Below, piece by piece: positions 5,782-56,530 of a DNA stretch of 64,000 nt. A program made the translations under genes and the position numbers. Within the stretch, counting starts at the first letter, position 1, and every line of letters begins with the position of its first letter. The DNA is from a virus. Under the pieces are notes generated by a model, which did no database searches, was not told the origin of the DNA, and saw only the letters and a program-made list of their open reading frames with translations. The stretch spans positions 55,479-119,478 of IMG/VR virus record IMGVR_UViG_3300045051_000172; one strand, given 5' to 3'.

Positions 5782-6312
5782 TTGAGTCTATCCGGAACCA
5801 ACACTGGAGAAGCAGTTACTCTGCAGATGCCAGGATATCCCGTAGTGCAAATCAAGAAGCTCTCTGAGAATGCAATATTGCCGGAAAAAAAGTCAGTCGG
5901 GGCCGCAGCCTTCGATATGTACGCAACAGAAGTCGTAATGGACCGATTTCAAGATTGTCAAATTGTTTATAAGACTGGAATTGCAATGTCGATTCCTGAA
6001 GGTCATGTCGGATTGATTTATCCTCGTTCGAGCATTCGAGATACTTTTCTATCCTTGACTAATGCAGTTGGAGTAATTGACTCTGACTATCGCGGTGAAA
6101 TTACTTTCACTTTCAACTATCGAGGACCCTTGACAAAAATGGTCAGCGGAAAATTAGGAATTCCGATTGATTCCAAAGACAAAATTTATAAGTCAGGAGA
6201 TCGCATAGGTCAAATAATTGTCATGCCGATCCCTTTGGTGTATTATAAAGAAGTGCAGGAACTCAGCCCTACCCTCAGAGGTAGCCAAGGACTTGGATCA
6301 ACCGGGAGATAA
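5782..6312 (+). CDS. dut: dUTPase (deoxyuridine triphosphatase)
   Basis: Hydrolyses dUTP to dUMP and pyrophosphate, keeping uracil out of phage DNA. All five motifs of trimeric dUTPases are visible: AAAFDMYA, PRSSIRDT, GVIDSDYRGEI, RIGQIIVMPI and RGSQGLGSTGR at the C-terminus. The chosen start is a TTG at 5782, 6 nt after GGAGG; no ATG lies near. Length 176 aa is normal, with a modest insertion before motif 4. Confidence 0.93.
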   Translation: MSLSGTNTGEAVTLQMPGYPVVQIKKLSENAILPEKKSVGAAAFDMYATEVVMDRFQDCQIVYKTGIAMSIPEGHVGLIYPRSSIRDTFLSLTNAVGVIDSDYRGEITFTFNYRGPLTKMVSGKLGIPIDSKDKIYKSGDRIGQIIVMPIPLVYYKEVQELSPTLRGSQGLGSTGR

Positions 6313-6316
6313 CTGA

Positions 6317-7984
6317 ATGAGTAAACGCAAATTACCAAAAAAACCTTCCATTAAAAAAGTAGAAAAAGAAAAAGCTAAGGCGAAAAAGAAAGTTCTCAAG
6401 ACGTACACCTCGTTCGTAAAGAAACAAGGGCGTCACCCGACAACTTCCGAAATGCTTCAACTCGGGGTCACCCGAAATACCATTCGTCATCACTATGGAT
6501 CTATTAGTGTTTTGAAAGAATTGGCTCGTGAAGAATTTCCGAAAGTGTTCAGAGACATTATCGATGGAGACTATTTCACCGAACAGCGTTATGAAAAACT
6601 TCAGAACGATGTAAAGAATTATTCTCGTTTCGTAATCACTACCGCAGTAGTGGGTTCTCCTGTTCATAAAAAGTTCTTAGCTGCGATTGAAAATTATTGC
6701 AGTAGAAATCGGGCGCTCCTTTTGGTTCTCCCGTCTGCAGACCCTGCCAAATCTTCTGATTGGGTTTTAGATCGTGTTCTAGCCCAGAAACAAATTCACT
6801 TGGTATTTAAGAACTTGAGCTTGAATTCTAATTTCTTTGTAAGTTCCATTAAAACCAGTGCAAAGCAGCTAAAGCCCATGACTGGCTTGGAGCGCATTGG
6901 AAACCGAAATGGATCTTTCGTATTCGCCTCACCGAAACAAGATCTTGATTTCGTTGCAACTTCCAACACTAAGTTTCCCCACGCTCTCATGACGACGGGC
7001 GCAATCACTCTTCCAGATTATGAAACCGATGAATATATGTCGGAGCGCACCGCGTATCTTGCAAAAGAAGATCACGTTATGGGCGCGCTCATTGTCGAAA
7101 TCGAAGATGACAAGATTTATCACTTCCGTCAAATCCAGGCAGAGTCAACCTCAGGTAACTTTGTGGATTTAGGAGATTATTACAAATCTACCGGCGAAGT
7201 GGAACAGATGGATGCCGAAGCTCTTGTAATGGGGGATTACCACGCTGGAGAAACTGATCCTACCGCAAAACAAGCTTGGAAAGAAGTTGTTCAGGCTGTT
7301 CGAGCAAAAGACTTAGTTCTTCATGACATGTTCAACGGAAAATCGATTTCCCATCATGATAAGAAACGAAAAGTCAAAATGGCTATCAAGTTTAAAGAAA
7401 ATCACTTGTCTCTGCAGGATGAAGCTAAGATCACTGCGGATGAAGCAAATGACCTGGCTTCTTGGATTAAATCCCGAGATGGAAAATTGTTCTGGGTTAA
7501 GTCGAATCATGATGACTTCCTAGCTCGTCTCCTTGAAGACGGAGGTTGGATTGACGATCCGATCAATATGGTTCTTTGTTCGTCTTTAATTGAACCCATG
7601 TCTGAAGGTAAAGATCCTTTGACGGTTTTAATGGAGAAGCAAAAGAATTTGAAGGCAGATACCAAAAGTCGAATTGTTTGGTTGAAAAGAACTCAAGATT
7701 ATAAGATTGCTGGGCATCAAATCGCTGCTCACGGGGATTTAGGTTCGCACGGTTATAGAAACCCTACTCTTGAGAACTTAGAGAATTCTTATGGAAGCTC
7801 GGTTTCCGGCCACTCCCATACTCCTGCGATTCGCAGAAATGCTTGGAGAGTCGGAACCTCAAGTATGCTCAAGCTGGACTACAATGAAGGTCCTTCTGCT
7901 TGGTTGCACACTTCCTGTATCATCTATCCTAACGGCGCTCGACAGCTTGTTAACGCCTTCCAAGGAAAGTGGAGAAAAAAATAG
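6317..7984 (+). CDS. MRE11/SbcD-type metallophosphoesterase, T5 A1-like nuclease candidate
   Basis: 555 aa. The C-terminal half has the two-metal phosphoesterase motifs: GDYHAGE (about 306-312), SNHDD (about 396-400), HGDLGSHG (about 472-479) and SGHSHTP (about 497-503). The N-terminus is very Lys-rich and then carries a helix-turn-helix-like region (TSEMLQLGVTRNTIRHHYG). Phage T5 A1, a protein of almost the same length with the same motif set, degrades host DNA early in infection. By analogy this is a DNase candidate. The analogy rests on length and motif order recalled from knowledge, so the role is inference. Confidence 0.65.
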   Translation: MSKRKLPKKPSIKKVEKEKAKAKKKVLKTYTSFVKKQGRHPTTSEMLQLGVTRNTIRHHYGSISVLKELAREEFPKVFRDIIDGDYFTEQRYEKLQNDVKNYSRFVITTAVVGSPVHKKFLAAIENYCSRNRALLLVLPSADPAKSSDWVLDRVLAQKQIHLVFKNLSLNSNFFVSSIKTSAKQLKPMTGLERIGNRNGSFVFASPKQDLDFVATSNTKFPHALMTTGAITLPDYETDEYMSERTAYLAKEDHVMGALIVEIEDDKIYHFRQIQAESTSGNFVDLGDYYKSTGEVEQMDAEALVMGDYHAGETDPTAKQAWKEVVQAVRAKDLVLHDMFNGKSISHHDKKRKVKMAIKFKENHLSLQDEAKITADEANDLASWIKSRDGKLFWVKSNHDDFLARLLEDGGWIDDPINMVLCSSLIEPMSEGKDPLTVLMEKQKNLKADTKSRIVWLKRTQDYKIAGHQIAAHGDLGSHGYRNPTLENLENSYGSSVSGHSHTPAIRRNAWRVGTSSMLKLDYNEGPSAWLHTSCIIYPNGARQLVNAFQGKWRKK

Positions 7985-7991
7985 TTTCCAC

Positions 7992-8020
7992 TTGACGTTT
8001 GTTTTCTTCGACTGTAAAGT
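7992..8020 (+). promoter_or_regulatory. Promoter upstream of 8043
   Basis: TTGACG (7992-7997), a 17-bp spacer and TAAAGT (8015-8020). A GGAG ribosome site follows at about 8030, so this transcript has a normal leader. Confidence 0.5.
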
Positions 8021-8042
8021 TGAACCATAGGAGAACATTCAC

Positions 8043-8615
8043 ATGCAAGTAGAATACAAATTAAAATTGGGTCAAGAAGAATTCACTCTTAAGACGGAAG
8101 TCCAAAACGAGATCGAATTTTTCCAAAAGATGGCTTTCTATTCAGGTCTTCCAAAGACTGGTCCGAATGGAGAGAATGACCTTAAGCTCGTTCACAGAAC
8201 TACCAAGAAAGGCGATTACTACTCAATCGTTTCAGTTTCGGCTGGACAAGAGTATCGTCTCGGAATTTTAAAAGAAGGCGGCCTCTTTCCTAAAGGTTGG
8301 GCTCCCATCTACGGCACAAGCGAAGACGCAGAAGAAACTGCTACGTCTACGGCTCAAGCCACAGTAGCCTCGGTTGAAACTCAAATTGCCGCCGCTACCG
8401 CAGCTCCAAAGGCTGCAGCCGCAACTGCGACTGCCGCTCCGAAAGCAGCAGCTCCCGCAGCCGCTGCACCTAAGGCCGCACCAGCCCAGCGTTCAACGGC
8501 AGACATCATTAATCAGTATGCCGTCGGAAACACCGCAACTAAACCCGCAGCAGCCTCGGCGGCCCCCGCAACCGCCCCAGCAACTGGAAATGTGAACTCA
8601 CTACTTAGGAGATAA
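8043..8615 (+). CDS. Protein with folded N-domain, Ala/Pro linker and short C-terminal tail
   Basis: 190 aa. Residues 1-95 form a mixed domain. Residues 96-155 are almost wholly Ala, Pro, Thr and Lys (repeats such as APKAAA). Then come STADIINQYAVGN, a second Ala/Pro stretch and the ending NVNSLLRR. The layout of fold, flexible linker and tail peptide recalls single-strand DNA binding proteins that recruit partners by the tail, but the tail here is not acidic. It heads the replication block just before the primase-helicase. Function unknown. Confidence 0.55.
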   Translation: MQVEYKLKLGQEEFTLKTEVQNEIEFFQKMAFYSGLPKTGPNGENDLKLVHRTTKKGDYYSIVSVSAGQEYRLGILKEGGLFPKGWAPIYGTSEDAEETATSTAQATVASVETQIAAATAAPKAAAATATAAPKAAAPAAAAPKAAPAQRSTADIINQYAVGNTATKPAAASAAPATAPATGNVNSLLRR

Positions 8616-8960: not shown

Positions 8961-8992
8961 TGAGCATGTCTCAGAAACTGCTCATTCTTTTT
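8961..8992 (+). terminator. Weak terminator or attenuator
   Basis: Stem TGAGCA (8961-8966) with TGCTCA (8979-8984), a 12-nt loop, then TTCTTTTT. The stem is only 6 bp, so read-through into the primase-helicase gene is likely. Confidence 0.4.
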
Positions 8993-9003
8993 AGGAGATT
9001 TGA

Positions 9004-10986
9004 ATGCGTTATAAGCTTCTTAAACCTGATTGGGCTCAACCTTATATAAAAGGTAAGGATCGAAAACCCAATCCGGCGTTCATACAAGAAATTCCAGGAT
9101 CTGAAGATACACTCGAAGGTGACTTCACTGAGGAATTCCTTGCGCAAAAAAATCAAGAAGGTTACAACGTCTACTTCTTTCCAAACTTTCCAAAGACTCT
9201 ACATCCAGAAATTAAGTACGCTCGCGGAGAGCATATCGATGTTTTTGATTTCGTTTTTGTAGACATGGATTTAAAAGAAGGGGTTTATCCGACTAAAGAA
9301 GCCTTCTTGAGCAAACTTAGAGAATTTCCCATCCAACCATTTTTGGTAGTTGATTCGGGACATGGAATCCATGCTTATTGGAAGATCTCCAATTTGACTC
9401 GAAACGATTTCGTTTTTACTCAATTACAATTGATTCAAACTTTCACCACAGATGATTCGATCTGGACTGTCAAACAAATCATGCGCGCCCCTGGATACAA
9501 CAATACTAAACGATTCGGGGAATTTGTTCCCGCTGCCGTAGTTCCAGGATTCCAAGGAATAGAGGTTTCTCTTGAGACTCTACGCTCTGCCTTAAGCCCT
9601 TTGACGGCTGATAATAAAACTCGCGGACAACGTCACTTGGACAAAATGGATGGTATTGAATCAGACGAAGATCTGGAAGATTTAGATGTCTCTGAACTTC
9701 CTGAAAAATTTAAAGACGATATCGCCAAAGATCCTTTCTTGAAACAGATTTGGGAAGATCCTAAATCCTATCGAGGAGATCGATCTTCTGCTGACATGAA
9801 GTTAGCCAATATGCTGTTCAACTTAGATTACGACCGAACCGAGGCTTATACCGTTCTAATGAATACGGAGAAAGCTCGAAGTCGAGATGCCCACAATCGA
9901 CACACATACGCATTCACAGTCGTAGACAAAGTTTATAAAGATCGACCTAAATTTTACGAGGACACTGTTGCTGATTATGTTAAGACAGAAGGGGACTTTA
10001 TTGAACTCGGAAAAGAAGTTCGAGGTCCAGAGTGGATGGATGTTCAAGAAGAGAAATGGAGACGCGGACAAGTTCTGGGTCTCGTTCTAGGAACGGGTAT
10101 GGGTAAATCAACCCTATCCTTAGACATCATTAAACACATTCTTCAAAATAATCCCAAGGGACGTTTCGTTTACTTCTCTCTTGAAATGTCTAAGAAGAGC
10201 ATGATTGATAAGTGGCTTCGACTGACGAGAAATGATATGGCCCTTGCGGCTCGGCTTCATATCGTAGCAAATGAAACTAAGTCAAACGACATTCGTCACA
10301 TTGGTCTTCAAGAAGTTGTTTGGATCACTAAAGATATCAAGAAAGTCACTGGCGATGAAATTATCGGCATCGGAATAGATCACATGGGAGAACTCTCTAA
10401 TGTGGTTGACTTGACTAAAAACCCGGCATTCAACGCAAAGGGCGAGCTGGGACAAGGTGCAGGAGATAAGCGTTTCCGAGCATTGGGATACCAATCATTA
10501 TGTTCTAAAGTTAAAGACATCGCCAAGATGCTCAACGTATTTGTAATCATGCAATCACAAACAAGCCGCTTGTATGACATTATGGGCGATATTCCAATTC
10601 CAAAGTCTGGAGCTTTCGGTGCATCTAATTTCGAAAAGATGGTTCACTGGATGGTTACGGGCTGGCAACCGCTGCTCCGTGTTTATACCAAAACCAACAT
10701 GAGAGTCACGGCTTGGCAATATTGCAAATTAAGAACGGTAGGCGAAAGAGATCCGATTAAATTAAATGATCCTCGTCTGCTACTTTTTGATATGAAGATG
10801 GGAGCCTATAGAACTCTCACCGATGACGAAATGGAAGAAGTTAAGCTTTTAACCGAAGAGGCGGACAAACTTCGTTTAGCCCAAGAAAAGAATAAAGGTG
10901 GAGGAGTAGTTTATGGAAACTCTCCCGGAAAACTTTTAGAGCTTGTAGCTCAATACGAACGGTTGAAATCAAATGGTAAAGTTTGA
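9004..10986 (+). CDS. Bifunctional primase-helicase (AEP primase fused to DnaB-like helicase)
   Basis: 660 aa. N-terminal archaeo-eukaryotic primase (RepB/PrimPol type): catalytic VDMDL (about 86-90), SGHGIHAYW (118-126) and RAPGYNNTK. The C-terminal RecA-fold helicase has Walker A GTGMGKST (363-370), Walker B with GIDHMGEL (about 458-465) and a VIMQSQTSR segment like DnaB-family motif H3. One protein thus primes and unwinds, as T7 gp4 does with a different primase fold. The final 14 bp overlap the polymerase gene, so the two replisome subunits are co-translated. Confidence 0.88.
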   Translation: MRYKLLKPDWAQPYIKGKDRKPNPAFIQEIPGSEDTLEGDFTEEFLAQKNQEGYNVYFFPNFPKTLHPEIKYARGEHIDVFDFVFVDMDLKEGVYPTKEAFLSKLREFPIQPFLVVDSGHGIHAYWKISNLTRNDFVFTQLQLIQTFTTDDSIWTVKQIMRAPGYNNTKRFGEFVPAAVVPGFQGIEVSLETLRSALSPLTADNKTRGQRHLDKMDGIESDEDLEDLDVSELPEKFKDDIAKDPFLKQIWEDPKSYRGDRSSADMKLANMLFNLDYDRTEAYTVLMNTEKARSRDAHNRHTYAFTVVDKVYKDRPKFYEDTVADYVKTEGDFIELGKEVRGPEWMDVQEEKWRRGQVLGLVLGTGMGKSTLSLDIIKHILQNNPKGRFVYFSLEMSKKSMIDKWLRLTRNDMALAARLHIVANETKSNDIRHIGLQEVVWITKDIKKVTGDEIIGIGIDHMGELSNVVDLTKNPAFNAKGELGQGAGDKRFRALGYQSLCSKVKDIAKMLNVFVIMQSQTSRLYDIMGDIPIPKSGAFGASNFEKMVHWMVTGWQPLLRVYTKTNMRVTAWQYCKLRTVGERDPIKLNDPRLLLFDMKMGAYRTLTDDEMEEVKLLTEEADKLRLAQEKNKGGGVVYGNSPGKLLELVAQYERLKSNGKV

Positions 10987-24120: not shown

Positions 24121-26094
24121 ATGGCAGACGGCGACAACAAAGAAGGTATCCTTTCGAAAGCCTTGAATGCTTTTGAAAATTACTTGGACAATCGGATGGA
24201 GAAGGGCGCTAAAGTAGAGCCTGATTTTGCTCCAGTCGAAGAAGACGTACTTTATCGAAAAAGTGCTTACAAAGATCCGAGCTACTCAATCGGAGCCCAA
24301 GGATACCAAGATAAGACCGCTCGCTTGAGCTTCAACTTGCTCAGAGAAATGGCCGTTCGAGATACCGTCGTTTCCGCAATCATTCAAAATTATCAAAACG
24401 ATGTTTCAGACTTCGCGAAGCCCGCCAAAGCAAAATACGAAAAAGGCTTCAAAATTGTTCCGAAGAACGAAAGACAAAAGATTTTAAAACTCATTGCAGA
24501 ACTCTTTCCTGAACAAAAGTCTGAGAAGAAAGAAGAGAAAGACTTTAATAAAGCCTCTGATCCTCTTTTAAACAAAGAAGAAGCGATGGACAAAGAGGAC
24601 AACAATCTGAGCGAAGATTTGATTGATGATGCGATCAATGAAGCCAGCCAAGTAGTAGCCGAACCTCTTACTCTCCGTGAAAAAGAACGGATTGCCAAGG
24701 AAGAACTTGTTCGAAGAAATCTTGAGAAGATTGAAAAGCTCAAAGACTTAGTCATGAGCTGCGGAAATTTAGAGAATCGAAGTTTTGAAGATCGACGATG
24801 GAACTTTGAAGGTCTCCTTCGAGCCATTGTTCGAGATACCCTTACCTTCGATCAGTATGCAATTGAACGTATTCCAAACAATGAAGGCAAGCTCAATCAC
24901 TGGGTTCCAGTTGACGGAGCGACTATTCGATTTGCAACTCCGGCTTTAAAACAACAAAAGGGTCAAATAGCCAGCGAATTCGGTTACGATATTCTTTTTC
25001 CTGAGAAGGAATTAGAAGCTATGCAACAATCAGACGCGATTCAATTGGACGAAAAGAAACTTGAAAACGACGAGTATAAATGGGTTCAAGTTATTAGAGG
25101 CAAGATCGAGCGCGGCTTCACAGAACAAGAACTTGTGGTTGGTATGCGTAACCCTACGACCAATGTTTATTCAAACGGTTACTCTGTCCCTGAATTAGAA
25201 GTGCTGGTCAATACGATTTCCTCACATATTTTCACTGAAAACTACAACCGAATGTATTTCACCCAAGGGTTTTCAGCCAAAGGTATCCTGCACATTAAGG
25301 CTCCACTTCCTCGACGTAAGTTAGAAGCTTTCCGCCTTCAATGGAATCACCTTTTGAAAGGTAATAAGAACTCCTTCCAAACTCCGATTGTTTCTGGTAT
25401 GGACGAGATTCAATGGATTCCTTTGACTCAGAATCATTCTGATATGGAATTTTCCAATTGGATGAACTACCTCATTAAGATTATTTGTTCTTTGTTCCAA
25501 ATTGATCCAATGGAAATTGGCTTCGGAATGAAAGAAGAAGGCCGAACCGGCGGGAACATGGGCGGAGACAACACTCAAGAGAAGCTCAAGCTTTCTCGCG
25601 AAAAGGGTCTCAAGCCAATGATGACTCATCTTCAAAACTTCTTCAATCAAAATATTATCAATCAAATCGATCCTGAATTTGAATTGGTATTCGTAGGTTT
25701 AGACGATGAATCTCAACAAGAAGCTATTAGTCGTCAAGAAAAAGAAGTTAAGTTCAAGAAGACTGTAAACGAGATTCGAGCGGAAGACGAACTTCCTCCT
25801 CTCGACGGATGCGACAAGTTATTGCTCGATCCAAACTACATGCAGTATTACATGAACATGAGTCCAGACGGTCTCAAAGCCAAGCAACAAATGAATGAAC
25901 AGCAAATGCAAATGCAATCGATGCAAGATGGCACTTTGGCTGATCCGAAAGTTGGAGAAGAGCTTGAGAATCAAAAAGATCAACCGGAAGAAGAAGAAGT
26001 TGGCACGGCTTCGGTCAATCCACAAAAAGCTCCCGAAGAAGAAGTACAGAAGTCACTCCTAACCATCGAGCACTATACGCTCCCTAAGGAGTAA
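24121..26094 (+). CDS. Portal protein
   Basis: 657 aa. The core has the portal-type segment FSNWMNYLIKIICSLFQIDP followed by MEIGFGMKEEG, plus the earlier RDTVVSAIIQNYQNDV helix. The N-terminal third holds a long Lys/Glu insertion (about residues 120-210), and the tail is acidic and Gln-rich. It forms the dodecameric DNA gate at one capsid vertex. Position after terminase and before MuF supports the call. Confidence 0.85.
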   Translation: MADGDNKEGILSKALNAFENYLDNRMEKGAKVEPDFAPVEEDVLYRKSAYKDPSYSIGAQGYQDKTARLSFNLLREMAVRDTVVSAIIQNYQNDVSDFAKPAKAKYEKGFKIVPKNERQKILKLIAELFPEQKSEKKEEKDFNKASDPLLNKEEAMDKEDNNLSEDLIDDAINEASQVVAEPLTLREKERIAKEELVRRNLEKIEKLKDLVMSCGNLENRSFEDRRWNFEGLLRAIVRDTLTFDQYAIERIPNNEGKLNHWVPVDGATIRFATPALKQQKGQIASEFGYDILFPEKELEAMQQSDAIQLDEKKLENDEYKWVQVIRGKIERGFTEQELVVGMRNPTTNVYSNGYSVPELEVLVNTISSHIFTENYNRMYFTQGFSAKGILHIKAPLPRRKLEAFRLQWNHLLKGNKNSFQTPIVSGMDEIQWIPLTQNHSDMEFSNWMNYLIKIICSLFQIDPMEIGFGMKEEGRTGGNMGGDNTQEKLKLSREKGLKPMMTHLQNFFNQNIINQIDPEFELVFVGLDDESQQEAISRQEKEVKFKKTVNEIRAEDELPPLDGCDKLLLDPNYMQYYMNMSPDGLKAKQQMNEQQMQMQSMQDGTLADPKVGEELENQKDQPEEEEVGTASVNPQKAPEEEVQKSLLTIEHYTLPKE

Positions 26095-28575: not shown

Positions 28576-29430
28576 TTGAAAGCCAAATCTACGATTCACC
28601 GGGATCAGAGTGCCCTAGAGAACTATCTGGTCTACGGAATTCATATCTCAAACCGAAAGATATACTTTGGTACGGCTTCCCCTACGGAAGGAGAGCCGGG
28701 GGATCAGTCTGATTTCGGACACAATTCAGTTGCCCTTTATATACGGGCCATCGATCTCATGGTTGAGATGTCCAGCAAACCAATAGAGCTTCACATGACT
28801 TCATACGGCGGAGACCCGTACTTCATGCTCGCGCTCAAGGATAAGATTCTCGAATCCCCAGTCAAGTTTAAATTCTACGGTCGGGGCCGGATCGCCTCAG
28901 CCGCGACCTGGATTATGGCGGTCTGTGACGAGCGCTATCTTTCTGAGGATACTGTGGTCATGATCCATAACGGGTCTACCTATTATCAAGATTTCTCCGG
29001 CAAGGTTCCAATGACCGATGCCAGCATTATGGCTGAACACGACGAGATCCTCCAAGATCGTTTGAATACGATTTTCGCTGAGAACTCTCGAATGCCTAAA
29101 GAATTTTATGACATGATCGTGAAGCGAGATTGCTTCATGACAGCCAAAGAAACAATCATGCTTGGATTGGCCGATGAAATCATCCCTCACCGCAAGAGAG
29201 CCAGTCTACGACAAAGGCGTATCGAGAATCTCAAAGACGCTCCCAGAGCCATTGACATTCAGAGATTAGTCAATCGCTTGGTCAAGAGAACTCACATTGA
29301 CAATGCGGCGCTTAAATTCACCTTTAATATTCAAAAAGAGAAATCAGAAGAATTACCGGATTACGATAATTCGATAAACGAGCTGGGTAAGCTTGGAATC
29401 TCGGAGACTCCGGATGAATCTGATAAGTAA
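28576..29430 (+). CDS. ClpP-like serine protease
   Basis: 284 aa, TTG start at 28576 behind GGAGG, next to the co-chaperonin. ClpP/crotonase fold: TSYGGDPYFML (oxyanion region), the nucleophile Ser in RIASAATW (about S107), His in VMIHNGS (about 131) and Asp in GLADEII (about 199). A 70-aa charged C-terminal extension follows. No Clp ATPase is present. It could process head proteins or work with host ClpX/ClpA; neither is shown. Confidence 0.8.
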   Translation: MKAKSTIHRDQSALENYLVYGIHISNRKIYFGTASPTEGEPGDQSDFGHNSVALYIRAIDLMVEMSSKPIELHMTSYGGDPYFMLALKDKILESPVKFKFYGRGRIASAATWIMAVCDERYLSEDTVVMIHNGSTYYQDFSGKVPMTDASIMAEHDEILQDRLNTIFAENSRMPKEFYDMIVKRDCFMTAKETIMLGLADEIIPHRKRASLRQRRIENLKDAPRAIDIQRLVNRLVKRTHIDNAALKFTFNIQKEKSEELPDYDNSINELGKLGISETPDESDK

Positions 29431-30263: not shown

Positions 30264-30473
30264 ATGAGTAGAGACTCGACGGAAGTCAAATTATTAACGA
30301 TTCGGCAGAGGTACAGAGATGCCTTGGACTTTTACACAAGTTCTCGTGTTCTCCCTTTGAAACGGGTTCACTACCTCCGAACACAGTTAGAAGTTTGCAC
30401 CGAACTCCTGACTCTTTATCAGAACGCGAAACTAGAAAGGGTCAAACATGGAAAAACTAATCAAGCTTCTTAA
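30264..30473 (+). CDS. Hypothetical protein, 69 aa
   Basis: The ATG at 30264 is preferred over an upstream in-frame ATG at 30216, because the promoter -10 box at 30251-30256 lies between them. Helical and basic. No Shine-Dalgarno. It overlaps the membrane protease gene by 26 bp. Confidence 0.5.
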   Translation: MSRDSTEVKLLTIRQRYRDALDFYTSSRVLPLKRVHYLRTQLEVCTELLTLYQNAKLERVKHGKTNQAS

Positions 30474-31536
30474 AGGTTTAACAAAGGCTTCAATCGTCAC
30501 TTCAATCTTGATTGGCGGCGCGATTACTCTCCTAGCCTACGTTAAGTATCCTTTCGAAAGCACACTTGGACCCCTTCAACAAGAAACTAAAATTGTTGAA
30601 AAAGAAGTTCCCGCAAAAGAAACAGCCACAAATACGGCTACCGCGAAAATCAAAGAGCTTCTTTACACTCCAGCGAATGGAACTCCGGCCAATGATGTGA
30701 AGATTCTTCCAGTGAAACCTTCTCCTGCAAAAACCGAAAAGCAACAAACAATTATTTTGGGCAAGAAAAATACTTTGGTTTTGAAAGGCGTAGTCAATAT
30801 GCTCTCCGTCTCAAAGCTTCAACAAGAAGCAATTTTGATGTCGGCGAAACTTGATAAGAACACCCCGATCTATCTGGTCCTTGACACTCCCGGCGGCTCC
30901 GTCACTGCAGGTCAGATCCTTGTGGATACTCTTAAAGCCCTCCCAAATAAAGTTCACACGATTACCCTTTTCTCGGCATCCATGGGTTATCACATCGTTC
31001 AACGACTTGATGATCGATTGATTCTCCCCTCAGGTACTCTTATGAGTCACCGTATGCGAGTTGGCGGAATCGAAGGACAAGTCCCTGGAGAAGCCGTTAC
31101 CGCAATGAATGATACGATTCGTCTCGCGAATAAACTTGACCGAGAAGTTTCCGAAAGAATCAATATGCCTTTCGAAGAATATAGAGCCGCAATCCGAGAT
31201 GAACTTTGGTTAGATGGTTCTGATTCAGTTGCTCAAAACATGGCAGATAAAGAAATTCTGGCCCTTTGCGGACAAGACATGATGGGCACCTATGAAGAAA
31301 AGATCGACCTCCTGTTCTTTGTCATCAAAGCCACTTGGTCCGAATGCCCTTTGATTCGATTTCCAGTCAAGGTAGAAATGGCCGATCTGACCAGATCTCG
31401 ACAGATTTTCGGAATCCAAGCAGCGGCAAAACAAGCTGAATATGAAAAATTTATCAATACTTTAATGTACGATAAAGCCAAATTTGTCCATGAATACATC
31501 GTTACGGACAAATACAAAGAATTCATATCACAATAA
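30448..31536 (+). CDS. Membrane-anchored ClpP/SppA-like serine protease
   Basis: 362 aa. An N-terminal helix (about 14-34) anchors it. A Lys/Thr/Pro linker (50-105) follows, then a ClpP-fold domain: LDTPGGSVTAG (about 146-156), nucleophile Ser in FSASMGYH (about 178) and His in LMSHRM (about 202). A 110-aa C-terminal region is helical. This second ClpP-type enzyme differs from the soluble one at 28576. Membrane topology and target are unknown. It resembles membrane-bound S49/ClpP relatives. Confidence 0.75.
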   Translation: MEKLIKLLKGLTKASIVTSILIGGAITLLAYVKYPFESTLGPLQQETKIVEKEVPAKETATNTATAKIKELLYTPANGTPANDVKILPVKPSPAKTEKQQTIILGKKNTLVLKGVVNMLSVSKLQQEAILMSAKLDKNTPIYLVLDTPGGSVTAGQILVDTLKALPNKVHTITLFSASMGYHIVQRLDDRLILPSGTLMSHRMRVGGIEGQVPGEAVTAMNDTIRLANKLDREVSERINMPFEEYRAAIRDELWLDGSDSVAQNMADKEILALCGQDMMGTYEEKIDLLFFVIKATWSECPLIRFPVKVEMADLTRSRQIFGIQAAAKQAEYEKFINTLMYDKAKFVHEYIVTDKYKEFISQ

Positions 31537-32233: not shown

Positions 32234-33076
32234 ATGGAAACAGTGTTCAAGGCTATTATTCCGGTTGAAATCGATAAAAGTTCAACCGAAGGGGAATGGA
32301 AAATCAGGGGATTAGCCAGTACCTCCTCAAGAGATCAACAAGGCGAAGTCGTACTTCAAGAAGGTCTTGACATCTCTCCCATCGAGCAGAAAAAAGGCTA
32401 TTTCAATTTCGACCATAAAGTCGGACCTGAGAATATGGTCGGTTTGATCGATGGAGGTCGCAAGACTCCAGAAGGATTTTTCGTAGAAGGTCGACTCTTC
32501 AAAAACCACGATAAGGCTAAAGCTTTATACCAAATCATGTCTTCTCTCGGCAAGTCCGATAGAGGCCGAGTTGGGATGTCGGTTGAAGGTGTCATCCGCG
32601 AGCGCGCGGGCCAAGATGGCAAGATCATCAAACGAGCCATGATTAAGGCCGTAGCCCTCACTATGAACCCAGTCAATCAGGACACTTATGTGGATATCGC
32701 TAAGTCCCTGAATGCTGAAGGTATCGATATGGAAGAGAGTTTCAACCTCGGAGTCAGTGAAGATCTGAGTAATGTTCTCTCTGAAGAAGTTCACAAAGCT
32801 TTAGGCGTATCAAGTGCTTATGCCACTAGTACCCCTGCCCAATTAGAAGGCGGGGATGCTCTGGCTCAAGAAAGCCTCGATTCCAAAAAGAAGAAGAAAA
32901 AGAAGCTTAAGAAGATGGACGCCACCATGGCAAAATCCATGATTGGGACGGTTTTGGAGAAACTCCAGATCCTCTATCCTGACTTCTCAAGAACCCAACT
33001 TTTCGAACTCTTCAAGGATCGCCTGAACCAAAGATTCCCCGATTTAACAGGTTCTAAAGAAAACAAAATTAATTAA
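32234..33076 (+). CDS. Prohead maturation protease (S78/XkdF type) with capsid-like tail segment
   Basis: 280 aa. The protease core carries GLASTSSRDQQGEVV, the His in NFDHK (about 57-61) and the Ser in GRVGMSVEG (about 112-119), then AVALTMNPVN, which matches HK97-type prohead proteases. The C-terminal 90 residues are scaffold-like. Residues 187-216 (HKALGVSSAYATSTP onward) resemble residues 26-55 of the capsid protein. A poly-Lys stretch follows. It should cleave scaffold and capsid arms during maturation. Confidence 0.8.
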   Translation: METVFKAIIPVEIDKSSTEGEWKIRGLASTSSRDQQGEVVLQEGLDISPIEQKKGYFNFDHKVGPENMVGLIDGGRKTPEGFFVEGRLFKNHDKAKALYQIMSSLGKSDRGRVGMSVEGVIRERAGQDGKIIKRAMIKAVALTMNPVNQDTYVDIAKSLNAEGIDMEESFNLGVSEDLSNVLSEEVHKALGVSSAYATSTPAQLEGGDALAQESLDSKKKKKKKLKKMDATMAKSMIGTVLEKLQILYPDFSRTQLFELFKDRLNQRFPDLTGSKENKIN

Positions 33077-33079
33077 AAG

Positions 33080-33088
33080 TGCTATGAT
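33080..33088 (+). promoter_or_regulatory. Extended -10 promoter upstream of 33130
   Basis: TGCTATGAT without a recognisable -35, followed by an AAGGAG ribosome site. The same form (TGCTACGAT) precedes the capsid gene. Confidence 0.4.
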
Positions 33089-33129
33089 AAGGCATAGATT
33101 TAACCGCTAGGTAACAAGGAGATTTTCAA

Positions 33130-33345
33130 ATGGCGCTATCAAAAGGTCGACGACAAGGACGAAGTTTACGAAAGACGAATACCATTAAGCCAAAATCGGC
33201 TGAACAAGGTATGCTCATCAATCAAGATTCTCTTATTGATGTATTGAATGCAATCAAAGAAGCAGTTGCTGACGCGACTGATCTTGCTACGCTTCAATCT
33301 GGAATTGCAGCGATTTCTATTCCAAGCAAACTGAGACTTCGATAA
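33130..33345 (+). CDS. Small basic protein, 71 aa
   Basis: Arg/Lys-rich N-terminus (SKGRRQGRSLRKTN), then a helical segment. Strong AAGGAG upstream. Sits between protease and scaffold, so it may be a minor or internal head protein. Family unknown. Confidence 0.5.
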   Translation: MALSKGRRQGRSLRKTNTIKPKSAEQGMLINQDSLIDVLNAIKEAVADATDLATLQSGIAAISIPSKLRLR

Positions 33346-33376
33346 TTTTTAGAAAAGTTTTAACGGAGGCGTTATC

Positions 33377-34288
33377 ATGGCAGATCAAGTTCAAAATACA
33401 GAAGAACTCAAAAAATCAATGGATCAATTGATCGAAGAGTTTTTTGCGGAAGAAGAGGCCACTGCCTCCGAAGAAGTTAAAAAATCTGAGCCCAAGGCTG
33501 AGGAAAAGAAGGAAGAGGGTACGGCCACTTTAGAAAAAGCATCTGATGCTATTTCTCAAATCATCGGCGAACCCAAACAAGCTAAGGAAGAAAGTGACCC
33601 GAACAAAACTCCGGCCACTTTAGCTGACTCTTCAGATAACAACATCAAAGAGAAATCTGAAGATGATGAAAAGAACGGCAAAAAACGCGGTCGTCCAAAT
33701 GACCTTTCTCAAATGTCAATGCGAGATATGTCTACTGGCGAAAGCAAGGGCTCTTATGATGCTTCTATCGCAGAAGCGGCTGTTTCTCCTGCCAAAGCAG
33801 AAGACAGCCAAGTTTCTCCTCCTGAGCACATGAAAAAAGCTGAGACTGTTGAAATCTCCAAAGAAGAATACGAAGCTCTTAAGAAATCTGCTGAAGAAAA
33901 TAAAAAGGCAGAAGAACTTAAGAAAGCTGAAGTAGTCAAAGCTGACACTGAGCGACTTGTTAAGTCTGCCGTTGAAAGCGCTACTGCTGAAATTCGAAAA
34001 GAAAAAGACGAAATCGCCAAGAAACTTGAAGAAACTACTATTCTTGTCAAATCGTTCTTGAAACAACCGAAACCTCGTAAATCGATCTCTTCTGTGGCCG
34101 CTCTCGAAAAAGGCGGATACGAAGGCGAACAAGCCAAAGTGTTCAGCAAGTCAGAAATGCTTGATGCCGCTGAAGAACTTGTTAAGTCGAAAGAACTTAC
34201 GATGGAAGACGTTATTGAACTCGAAAACACGGGCACGATTCACGATAAGTCGAAGCGCGCTGCTGTTGAACGAAAACTTCGTTCTTAA
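33377..34288 (+). CDS. Probable scaffold protein, 303 aa
   Basis: Highly charged, Glu/Lys/Ser-rich, with long helical coiled-coil stretches (about 155-225), no Cys and no hydrophobic core, as in phage scaffolds. An AT-hook-like KKRGRPND lies near residue 100. Located between protease and capsid genes, the classic scaffold place. Many Lys-Ser pairs recur. Called from composition and location. Confidence 0.65.
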   Translation: MADQVQNTEELKKSMDQLIEEFFAEEEATASEEVKKSEPKAEEKKEEGTATLEKASDAISQIIGEPKQAKEESDPNKTPATLADSSDNNIKEKSEDDEKNGKKRGRPNDLSQMSMRDMSTGESKGSYDASIAEAAVSPAKAEDSQVSPPEHMKKAETVEISKEEYEALKKSAEENKKAEELKKAEVVKADTERLVKSAVESATAEIRKEKDEIAKKLEETTILVKSFLKQPKPRKSISSVAALEKGGYEGEQAKVFSKSEMLDAAEELVKSKELTMEDVIELENTGTIHDKSKRAAVERKLRS

Positions 34289-34313
34289 TTTCTAAAAGTT
34301 CAATTTAAGTTTG

Positions 34314-34322
34314 TGCTACGAT
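34314..34322 (+). promoter_or_regulatory. Extended -10 promoter of the major capsid gene
   Basis: TGCTACGAT with no clear -35. It gives the capsid mRNA a leader of about 95 nt. Confidence 0.45.
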
Positions 34323-34339
34323 AGGTTATCCAATACCCT

Positions 34340-34380
34340 GGACTCAACCTCAACCGAGTCCTACAGCCAGTTTACCGGCT
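34340..34380 (+). promoter_or_regulatory. Structured 5' leader of the capsid mRNA
   Basis: Two hairpins: GGACTC (34340-34345) with GAGTCC (34356-34361), and AGCC (34365-34368) with GGCT (34377-34380). They precede an AAGGAG ribosome site. They may stabilise this high-level message. Confidence 0.4.
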
Positions 34381-34422
34381 AAAGTCCCACAAAGGACACA
34401 TTCCACTAAGGAGTATTTTAAA

Positions 34423-35856
34423 ATGGATAGTCTTAATCAACTACCCCAAGATCTTACTGGCTTTGGTGCTGCTAATGCTCAAGAAATCGAACAACTTCAA
34501 AAAGCGTTGTCAATCGGTTCTGAATATGCTACGCAAACCCCTGGGACATTAACCCAAGGTGCTGCGCTTGCTGTTGAAGACCTTGACCGTACTTTGAAAC
34601 TCGTTACCCACAGCATGGAACACATCAAGCTTTGGAAAGATATTGGTAAAGAAAAAGTGAGCCAAACGGTTCATGAATTTAACGTGCAAAACAGCTATGG
34701 AAATGAAGTTCCCGTATTTTTTCAAATGGGCGGAACTCCATCTTCAACCGATGCTAAATATGCTCGCGATGTCGCGATTGTAAAGTATCTTGGAACCCAA
34801 GGACAAGTTCAACACAACTTGACCCTTATCCAAGCCGCTCACGGTCCCGTTATCGCTCGCGAAGTCAAGAACAAGACGATTGAACTCTTGTCGCGTAATG
34901 AACGCGCCATGTTCAGCGCTGATTCTTCGATCAACTCGCTTGAGTATGATGGTATCGAAGCTCAAATCGCTTCAAAAGAAGGTCAAGCTAAGTACAAATC
35001 GACTGCTTTCGCAGGATATGATGGTCTCGGCGTTGACGATTCCGTATTTATCGACATGCGAAGCCGTGACGATATCTTGGATGAAGACTCTTGTGAAGAA
35101 GCCTGCTTGAGAGCAGTGAATAACTTTGGTATGCCAATGGATATGTACTTGGCCACCGACGTTCACTCTGATTTCAGCCGCGCTTTCTACGCAAAGCAAG
35201 TTACTCGTCCTGGAGATCGATCTGCTGCTGGTTACTTGGTTCCTGAATTCGTTGGAACTTTGAATTTCCGATTCAAAGCTAACTTGTTCAACCGAGCCCG
35301 CAAATCGCCTCTCGCTTCTGCGGTTTCTGCTTCTGCAGCTCCCACTCTCGCTTCGCCACTCAGCCCTGCTGACGCGGCTTCCGAGTTTGCTTCTGACGAC
35401 GCTGGTACCTATGGCTACAAGATTTCTGCAGTATATTCGGATGGCGAAACCCTTCCGTCTTCTGAGTCTTCTTTGGCTGTTGCCGCTGGCGACAAAGTAA
35501 CGCTTGCAATCACCTACTCAGGCTCGCCTGTTTACTTGAATGCATTCCGTTCTGCGAAAGATGCTGCTGGTTCTAATTGGCAATTCATTGGTCGAATCGC
35601 ACCTGCTGGTTCGGGCAATGCTCATAACGTCGATTACAACAAAAAGCTTCCTGGACGCAGTTCAGCTTTCTTACTTATGCATGATCCGGATGCGCTTGTT
35701 TTCAAGCAACTCGGCTCTATGATTAAGTATGACTTGGCTGTTACTGACACTTCGTACAAATGGTTACAACTGTTGTACGGAATGGTCGTTATCCAAGCTC
35801 CTCGTAAACACATTATTCTTGAGAATATTGCGTTGTCGAGAGATGTTTCGGCTTAA
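34423..35856 (+). CDS. Major capsid protein
   Basis: 477 aa, probable HK97 fold. Placed after protease and scaffold, behind its own promoter and a strong ribosome site, and followed by the strongest terminator in the window. Residues 1-60 form a helical N-arm likely removed in maturation. About residues 290-410 are Ala/Ser-rich, with GTYGYKISAVYSDGETLPSS and later VYLNAFRSA, which looks like an inserted Ig/FN3-type domain. The C-terminal KWLQLLYGMVVIQAPRKH segment fits the P-domain end. Confidence 0.82.
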   Translation: MDSLNQLPQDLTGFGAANAQEIEQLQKALSIGSEYATQTPGTLTQGAALAVEDLDRTLKLVTHSMEHIKLWKDIGKEKVSQTVHEFNVQNSYGNEVPVFFQMGGTPSSTDAKYARDVAIVKYLGTQGQVQHNLTLIQAAHGPVIAREVKNKTIELLSRNERAMFSADSSINSLEYDGIEAQIASKEGQAKYKSTAFAGYDGLGVDDSVFIDMRSRDDILDEDSCEEACLRAVNNFGMPMDMYLATDVHSDFSRAFYAKQVTRPGDRSAAGYLVPEFVGTLNFRFKANLFNRARKSPLASAVSASAAPTLASPLSPADAASEFASDDAGTYGYKISAVYSDGETLPSSESSLAVAAGDKVTLAITYSGSPVYLNAFRSAKDAAGSNWQFIGRIAPAGSGNAHNVDYNKKLPGRSSAFLLMHDPDALVFKQLGSMIKYDLAVTDTSYKWLQLLYGMVVIQAPRKHIILENIALSRDVSA

Positions 35857-55135: not shown

Positions 55136-56530
55136 ATGAGCGATAAGATCGAAAAAGAGATTGAACAGTTAGCAGAAAGCCTTGAAAAAGCGGGCGCGTT
55201 AGCCGGTGAGGGCGTTAGAGGAGGCCAAATTATGGGCCATACTCCAACAGGCCAGCCAATCTATGAAAGCAATTTGCAAGCTCAAAAGCAATGGCGAGAG
55301 CAACATAAGAAGCCTTCCGCAAAAATCAAGAAGAACGAAAGTCCTGAAGATAAAGAAGAAGGCAAAGAAAAAGTTAAGAAATCCGAAGGGGAACTGACTA
55401 TGGAAGTTAAAGACACACTCAAAGGTATTTTGGCCCGAATTAATGAACTTGGACCCGATGGTCTCAAGAAAGCTGCGGCCCTTTTAACTCCTGAGCAAAA
55501 TGCACTGCTCAATAAGATTTTGACTAAGGCCCTTTCAATGGATAAAGAAGCCGTCAAAAAGCCCAAGAATGTTAAAGACCTTAATTCTCACGAGATTCCT
55601 AAGCAAGAAGGAGGCATAGATGAAGAAGATGAAAAATTGGTTAAACCGGAAGCGGACAGCCATCGTGCGCAAGGCGACAACTCTCCTGAAGGCATTGAAG
55701 GTCAAGTCATTAAAAGCGAAAAACCTGCTGTGCAAGGCGATCAAAAAGCTTATGGCGGTAAAGATGCTTCTTCGAACTATGTCGAAAAGTCTGAAGATGA
55801 AGTTGAAATGCCTAAGAAAAAGTTTAAAGAAGAGCATAAAAAGCTCGTTGAAGTCCTTGAAAGCCCTTCTCGCGAAGATGACAAAGAAGAAGCTAAAAAG
55901 CAAAAGAAAGAACTCAAGGAAGAAATGAATAAACCTGAGAAGGAAGACAAGAAAATGAAGAAGTCTGAAGTTTTAGAAGAAATCTATAAGTCGGATGAAA
56001 AACTCTCTGAGCTTTGCAGCAAATGTATGAGCAAAGGAATGAAGAAAGAAAAGTTCCTTGAAAAAGCCAGTGAAATGGGCTGGGATGTTAAGAAATGTGA
56101 TATGGCTTGGAGCCGATCTGAAAAAGCCGCTCAAAAGCCTATGAAGAAATCTATTGAATGGAACGATTGGACTGCTGATGCTTTTGGTATCGGTGCCAAA
56201 CGAGGCCGCAATTTCCATGTGTCGGGTAACGACGTTGAAATTGAAAAACAAGAGACTTCGACTAAAGAAACTCTCAAAAAAGGTGAATATCTTAATGAGT
56301 TCACCCACGAAGTATTTGCCAAATCTGACAACAAGAAAGTTTCGATCAATGATTTGATCGAGAAGAGTCTTGATCGTGATTCTTGCACAGTTGAAGAGAT
56401 TTACCAACACGTTACTGGTAAGAAAGCTCCCAAGACTGCAGTTCTGACCAAGAGCTTTGATGATTCTGAAATCGAAGCAGCTCTCGGAATTGATTCCAAG
56501 AAAGCGGAAGAGATTTTAGGTAAAAAATAA
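55136..56530 (+). CDS. Lys/Glu-rich virion-region protein, 464 aa
   Basis: ATG at 55136 behind AGGAG. The N-terminal GGQIMGHTPTGQPIYESN module is typical of phage internal or head proteins. Most of the rest is charged and disordered, with many KS and KSE steps, then a Cys-bearing helical unit (CSKCMSKGMKKEKFLEKASE) and further helical segments. Perhaps an internal virion or scaffold-like protein. Confidence 0.55.
   Translation: MSDKIEKEIEQLAESLEKAGALAGEGVRGGQIMGHTPTGQPIYESNLQAQKQWREQHKKPSAKIKKNESPEDKEEGKEKVKKSEGELTMEVKDTLKGILARINELGPDGLKKAAALLTPEQNALLNKILTKALSMDKEAVKKPKNVKDLNSHEIPKQEGGIDEEDEKLVKPEADSHRAQGDNSPEGIEGQVIKSEKPAVQGDQKAYGGKDASSNYVEKSEDEVEMPKKKFKEEHKKLVEVLESPSREDDKEEAKKQKKELKEEMNKPEKEDKKMKKSEVLEEIYKSDEKLSELCSKCMSKGMKKEKFLEKASEMGWDVKKCDMAWSRSEKAAQKPMKKSIEWNDWTADAFGIGAKRGRNFHVSGNDVEIEKQETSTKETLKKGEYLNEFTHEVFAKSDNKKVSINDLIEKSLDRDSCTVEEIYQHVTGKKAPKTAVLTKSFDDSEIEAALGIDSKKAEEILGKK

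Follow-up and report, generated by a model that had tools for sequence, protein, structure and literature searches.

A copy of the capsid protein's N-terminal arm in the prohead protease of SPO1-type phages

Why should a prohead protease carry, in its tail, a piece of its own capsid substrate? The question is raised by the head genes of an uncultivated virus, IMG/VR record IMGVR_UViG_3300045051_000172, of which a stretch of 64,000 nucleotides (positions 55,479 to 119,478 of the record, here called the window) was analysed. The C-terminal part of the protease encoded there contains a counterpart of the N-terminal arm of the major capsid protein (MCP). The two arms evolve in concert, and matching selection on both proteins is the simplest cause of their resemblance.

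The shared arm and the capsid maturation site

The two genes and the segments that match are as follows.

32234 to 33076, plus strand: prohead (head maturation) protease, 280 residues; matches phrog_1028 head maturation protease over residues 2-218 (E=2.3e-44).
32795 to 32881, plus strand: protease copy of the capsid arm, residues 188-216, opening at the candidate K188/A189 site; 17/30 identity, z=10.8.
34423 to 35856, plus strand: MCP, 477 residues; matches phrog_752 major head protein (E=7.6e-60).
34423 to 34503, plus strand: predicted MCP propeptide, residues 1-27; homologous phi812-type chains (9row/9rox/9roz) start after the aligned Lys24.
34501 to 34587, plus strand: MCP arm, residues 27-55, with the K27/A28 site followed by the retained N-arm; aligned to the protease arm and to the solved mature chain.

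Residues 187-216 of the protease (HKALGVSSAYATSTPAQLEGGDALAQESLD) align without gaps to residues 26-55 of the MCP (QKALSIGSEYATQTPGTLTQGAALAVEDLD), and 17 of the 30 positions are identical. Local alignment of the protease tail with the N-terminus of the MCP gives a best score of 85, against a mean of 28 and a maximum of 53 in 300 shuffles. The first-pass annotation had proposed a capsid N-arm-like segment in the protease, and the comparison bears this out; the start that it gave, 32789, lies a few bases too early, the arms being counted here from the Lys that both share. When the protease is searched by tblastn against its own 119,478-base record, the MCP arm is the sole match besides the protease itself (E=1.7e-4). 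A profile of the arm likewise matches only the protease and the MCP in the whole 119-kb record (E 4e-18 and 1e-16; next best 0.41); its training set included the window arms, which makes these E-values favourable, although the absence of third copies still holds. In the whole SPO1 genome, the profile again matches only the protease and the MCP, and no third copy was found by this search in either sequence.

The first residue of the arm is a Lys, which is followed by Ser, Ala, Gly or Thr. In the structures of the phage 812/K-type MCP (PDB 9row, 9rox and 9roz), the chain spans residues 25-463 and starts with Ser25, immediately after Lys24, which aligns to the first residue of the shared segment. 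Since the mature chains start at the shared Lys, the segment consists of the maturation site and the retained N-arm, and is not a discarded propeptide. By this alignment, the window arm is predicted to open at the MCP maturation cleavage site. In A511, 23 N-terminal residues are removed from Cps. The ALA-x-E-x-LD motif, with which the first-pass annotation had closed the shared segment, was considered as a T4-like Glu cut site and was set aside, since the solved mature chains put the cut at the Lys about 25 residues upstream.

The scaffold, which is the expected other substrate, is encoded between the two genes.

33377 to 34288, plus strand: probable head scaffold protein, 303 residues; sits between the protease and the MCP like SPO1 gp3.3.

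Lys followed by Ser or Ala (K-[SA]) occurs 17 times in the window scaffold, where 9.7 are expected (p=0.0095). The corresponding values are 14 versus 4.8 in SPO1, 16 versus 4.7 in EalM-132 and 14 versus 5.8 in Porthos. The arm profile found the arm in none of the scaffold proteins searched. Since scaffolds are rich in K-[SA] sites and have no arm, cleavage by itself probably does not require the arm.

Distribution and concerted evolution of the two arms

The arm pair is seen in SPO1, Exiguobacterium phage EalM-132, Listeria phage AG20, Twort, phiSA12, Enterococcus phage Porthos and Bacillus phage SBSphiJ3. Among 51 distinct protease/MCP pairs, made up of named relatives and of IMG/VR loci (found with single-protein queries), 47 score above all of their shuffles. 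Further positives are A9 (z=20.9), PMS3, SIOphi, Goe8, LP65, LfeInf and AVP, and two lie outside Herelleviridae in phages of Gram-negative hosts, Morganella phage Mecenats66 (z=6.2) and Yersinia phage fHe-Yen8-01 (z=13.2). Chryseobacterium phage MA9V-3 was left out of the counts because the gene tested is probably not its protease. In the phage collection, a 38-residue peptide from the phiSA12 protease arm finds 1092 matches spread over 556 records, or about two for each phage. When whole proteases are compared with all PDB sequences, the sole match of the SPO1 protease is the SPO1 capsid protein (E=2.3e-6), and the significant matches of the phiSA12 protease are phage K-type capsid proteins only. 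The similarity is thus kept in related phages, across Herelleviridae and beyond, as the first-pass annotation had suggested checking. In bacterial genome contigs, the MCP search turned up no confirmed relative.

The four exceptions among the 51 pairs are Bacteroides phage DAC19 (L004) and loci L024, L025 and L075. In DAC19, the MCP arm is still recognisable (LQKAMEAG...ATLKVEDLE), while the protease has no detectable copy (genes at 7461-8309 and 8974-10452). In L024, the match is weak yet visible. In L025, a soil virus contig, the start of the MCP lies outside the reading frame used; this MCP is divided between two open frames (5923-6243 and 6499-7692) with about 255 bases between them, owing to an intron, an insertion or an assembly error. 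In L075, the protease open reading frame (5974-7533, 520 residues) has a long C-terminal extension with no alignable arm copy, and the MCP arm is present.

Had a single old duplication been followed by independent drift, the protease arms would be nearest to each other and pairing by phage would be irrelevant. Among 12 deep lineages, cognate arm pairs average 79.6 and non-cognate pairs 37.9, a difference that none of 20,000 permutations reached, while protease arms from different lineages score 38.2 with each other. In a tree of 40 arms, built on 37 columns and with many forks unresolved, the arms cluster by lineage (window group 100/99, A9 96/87, L016 99/91), and a single clade of protease arms is rejected (log-likelihood difference 88.6; approximately unbiased test, p=0.00096). 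Individual lineages have their own shared motifs, such as YxHGGTDQ in both proteins of Brochothrix phage A9 and GGGAxGVQSLDT in both proteins of fHe-Yen8-01. Residues that are identical between cognate arms use the same codon in 296 of 694 cases, where codon usage predicts 298.0. Since codon identity is at the level set by codon usage, recent gene conversion is not the cause of the match, and gene conversion was set aside as its source.

Fold of the protease and comparison with known systems

By family match, fold and gene position, the protease appears to be an SPO1-type (Herelleviridae-like) head maturation protease, and homology to SPO1 gp6.1 (PDB 9vel, E=8.4e-49) and to the phage K MCP (5lii, E=7.9e-16) points to an SPO1-type MCP. 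The window has a portal gene at 24121-26094 (Pfam Phage_portal), the protease at 32234, the scaffold-like gene at 33377 and the MCP at 34423, with several additional genes separating the portal from the protease. The order portal, protease, scaffold, MCP is that of the SPO1-type head module (gp3.2 protease, gp3.3 scaffold, gp6.1 MCP), to which the homologous protease and MCP also correspond, and the same arm pair occurs in SPO1, A511-like, Twort, K-like, Enterococcus and Bacillus phages. The window record, from an uncultivated virus, differs from the SPO1-type isolates in that its MCP has only about 22-32% identity to theirs, and its protease differs in the C-terminal helical domain and in the lysine-rich linker that follows the arm. 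The same head module contains two genes for ClpP/SppA-like serine proteases (28576-29430 and 30448-31536), both of which match phrog_94 head maturation protease, and the second of which also matches Pfam CLP_protease (E=9.4e-14). Counting the assemblin-type enzyme, the module thus holds three proteases.

Around its arm, the window protease has the following parts, with model confidence given as the predicted local distance difference test (pLDDT).

32291 to 32704, plus strand: catalytic domain, residues about 20-157; pLDDT 85-97 over most of the domain (AlphaFold2).
32414 to 32416, plus strand: H61, invariant in 32 sequences.
32579 to 32581, plus strand: S116, invariant in 32 sequences.
32702 to 32707, plus strand: K157-S158, candidate self-cleavage site ending the catalytic domain; K157 invariant and S158 at least 90% conserved in 32 proteases.
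32885 to 32914, plus strand: lysine-rich linker (KKKKKKKLKK), residues 218-227, directly after the arm; read from the sequence, common in window-like relatives.
32918 to 33058, plus strand: C-terminal helical domain, residues 229-275, with helices 230-247 and 253-267; pLDDT 83-92 over 231-270.

The fold suggests that H61 and S116 are likely the catalytic pair. Within the arm, K188, L190, P201, G206 and G207 are near-invariant in the 32 proteases. The lysine run after the arm possibly contacts nucleic acid or the scaffold, and the C-terminal helical domain is kept in window-like relatives. In Twort-type proteases, the arm directly adjoins the catalytic domain. Two loci have enlarged enzymes: the protease reading frame of L018 (3259-4506) has about 90 extra charged residues inserted directly before the arm, and that of L014 (5947-7059) has a long charged extension beyond the C-terminal helical domain. 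Whether the arm docks on the catalytic domain of its own protein was considered; two AlphaFold models, both of monomers and made from alignments of 30-32 sequences, show no such docking. In the AlphaFold2 model from 32 relatives, the arm is unstructured (pLDDT <50) and undocked on the catalytic domain, and in the second, from the SPO1-like group, it is again undocked on the enzyme.

In a Foldseek search, the protease model matches the herpesvirus assemblins (E 1e-5) and T4 gp21 (5jbl, TMt 0.55-0.57, root-mean-square deviation about 3 A). The assemblins (pUL26 / pUL80a) are the closest solved folds. The herpesvirus protease enters the capsid through its C-terminal part, which binds the major capsid protein; that part is a scaffold fused to the protease, however, and not a copy of a capsid arm.

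HK97 gp4 and gp5 belong to the same protease superfamily and have the same capsid fold. HK97 gp4 has a K-S where its catalytic domain ends, in the position of K157-S158 in the window protease, and the gp5 sequence contains FNK-SLG, which we take to be the maturation site, cut after Lys103. As a distant case of the arm pair, HK97 was rejected, for gp4 has no copy of a capsid arm and its best alignment lies within the shuffles. Since the K-S of gp4 occurs without an arm, the arm seems to have been added behind an older candidate site of self-cleavage.

The proteases that process their own C-terminus, T4 gp21, phiKZ gp175 and SPN3US gp245, resemble the window protease in fold (the 5jbl match) and in having a C-terminal extension. 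They cut after Glu in a short motif, whereas the window protease would cut after Lys, and we know of no capsid-arm copy in the T4, phiKZ or SPN3US enzymes. The SPN3US and phiKZ proteases cut off their own C-terminus, from which prohead targeting of the enzyme has been inferred (PMC5694885). In T4, the capsid targeting sequences (CTS) of internal proteins and of Alt are short, end in a protease site and bring cargo into the prohead (PMC5694885). A T4 CTS is a propeptide that is removed at an (I/L)xE site and lost; in contrast, the window-type arm has a K/[SA] site, lies downstream of the cut, on the retained side, and is kept in the shell by the MCP.

Possible roles of the protease arm

The explanation that we favour, and to which we give about an even chance, is that the protease tail is an arm-shaped docking tag, which holds the enzyme inside the prohead and is released through the same cleavage that matures the capsid. 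Inside the prohead, the tail would bind the same shell site as an MCP arm, bringing the low-copy protease in and holding it against the inner surface. At the onset of proteolysis, the protease would cut its own K/[SA] site or sites (K157, K188) while it cuts the MCP at K27; this would free the catalytic domain, and the arm fragment would stay with the shell. Since the arm is kept in the shell of mature MCP, it should have a partner there. A docking tag is also supported by the detection of the protease in virions of CKA15 (29.5% coverage; PMC12282133) and Bc431v3 (12% coverage; PMC3601020), by the annotation of the fHe-Yen8-01 protease as particle-associated, and by the precedent of C-terminal auto-processing in SPN3US and phiKZ (PMC5694885). 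Of the two roles put forward in the first-pass annotation, entry into the prohead or control of the enzyme's own activity, entry and anchoring fit better, because the arm is undocked in both AlphaFold models and because scaffolds have K-[SA] sites without an arm.

Several points weigh against the docking tag. No arm copy was detected in the DAC19 protease by either of two checks, so that the tag is not universal and the pair can be uncoupled. The excess of plain K-[SA] dipeptides is weak in the scaffolds of Twort, phiSA12, AG20 and SBSphiJ3. Since the models are of monomers and rest on 30-32 sequences, little weight can be put on the undocked arm that they show. The partner of the arm could be the scaffold, or the protease itself, in place of the shell; shell docking, self-cleavage at K157 and K188, and the fate of the fragment are steps that we infer for this lineage. 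Old independent duplications in each lineage, with codon identity since lost, may also have produced the pairs, and in that case, too, selection would be required for the copies to stay matched.

One alternative, which we consider unlikely though worth serious weight, is that the arm controls timing. It would act as a cis pseudo-substrate, lodged in the active site or at an exosite of the protease that carries it or of a neighbouring one, and keep the enzyme quiet until the MCP arms of the assembled prohead displace it or are cut along with it; the arms would match since both fit the same enzyme surface. The Lys site that the arms share coincides in the alignment with the MCP cleavage site, conservation is strong at K157 and K188, and co-evolution is expected where both arms bind the protease. 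The match, however, extends 25 to 40 residues beyond the cut, more than protease subsites usually span; the scaffold has K-[SA] sites in abundance but no arm; the arm is undocked in the two models; and the DAC19 protease does without it.

Less probable again is that the arm serves both the MCP and the protease for binding the scaffold, or another core protein, before maturation, and that both are recruited to the growing prohead in this way. The scaffold gene lies between the protease and MCP genes in most of these phages, both proteins must assemble together with the core, and such binding accounts for co-evolution equally well; but the arm stays in the mature MCP once the scaffold is gone, so that a shell partner is needed too. 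A docking tag, a pseudo-substrate timer and scaffold binding all predict co-evolution, and the data cannot fully separate them.

It is improbable that the protease arm was simply re-acquired from the MCP gene in each lineage, by gene conversion or duplication, with little function beyond the cleavage site. Even though the arms group by lineage and not by protein, the codon identity of shared residues is at chance level (296 vs 298.0), and the near-invariant residues in the protease copy indicate constraint. Chance or a composition artefact in one phage, which the mere 30 residues and the Ala/Gly/Thr-rich stretches might suggest, has a negligible probability and is refuted by the shuffles (z=10.8), by the hundreds of phages that carry the match and by the PDB search in which the SPO1 protease finds only the SPO1 capsid protein (E=2.3e-6).

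Prohead proteases that process their own C-terminus are already known, as are the short targeting segments of T4. No published description was found, in a search that did not take in the key SPO1 and A511 papers, of a prohead protease whose tail duplicates the arm retained by its capsid substrate and evolves together with it, and the novelty of this arrangement is provisional. The arm pair bears on how prohead proteases enter the head, and on how they are timed, in tailed phages and in herpesviruses alike. With somewhat less than an even chance, the protease mimics the arm of its own substrate, takes an MCP-arm site within the prohead lattice and leaves it by the capsid-maturing cut, so that recruitment, timing and release would be one coupled switch across the lineage. 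The arm pair explains why protease and capsid profiles cross-match in annotation. From it one would expect a binding site on the inside of the shell, sites at which the protease cuts itself, and a means of addressing cargo into SPO1-type heads, and it offers a conserved handle on protease entry in the laboratory-tractable SPO1 and in therapy phages (K-like and A511/P100-like).

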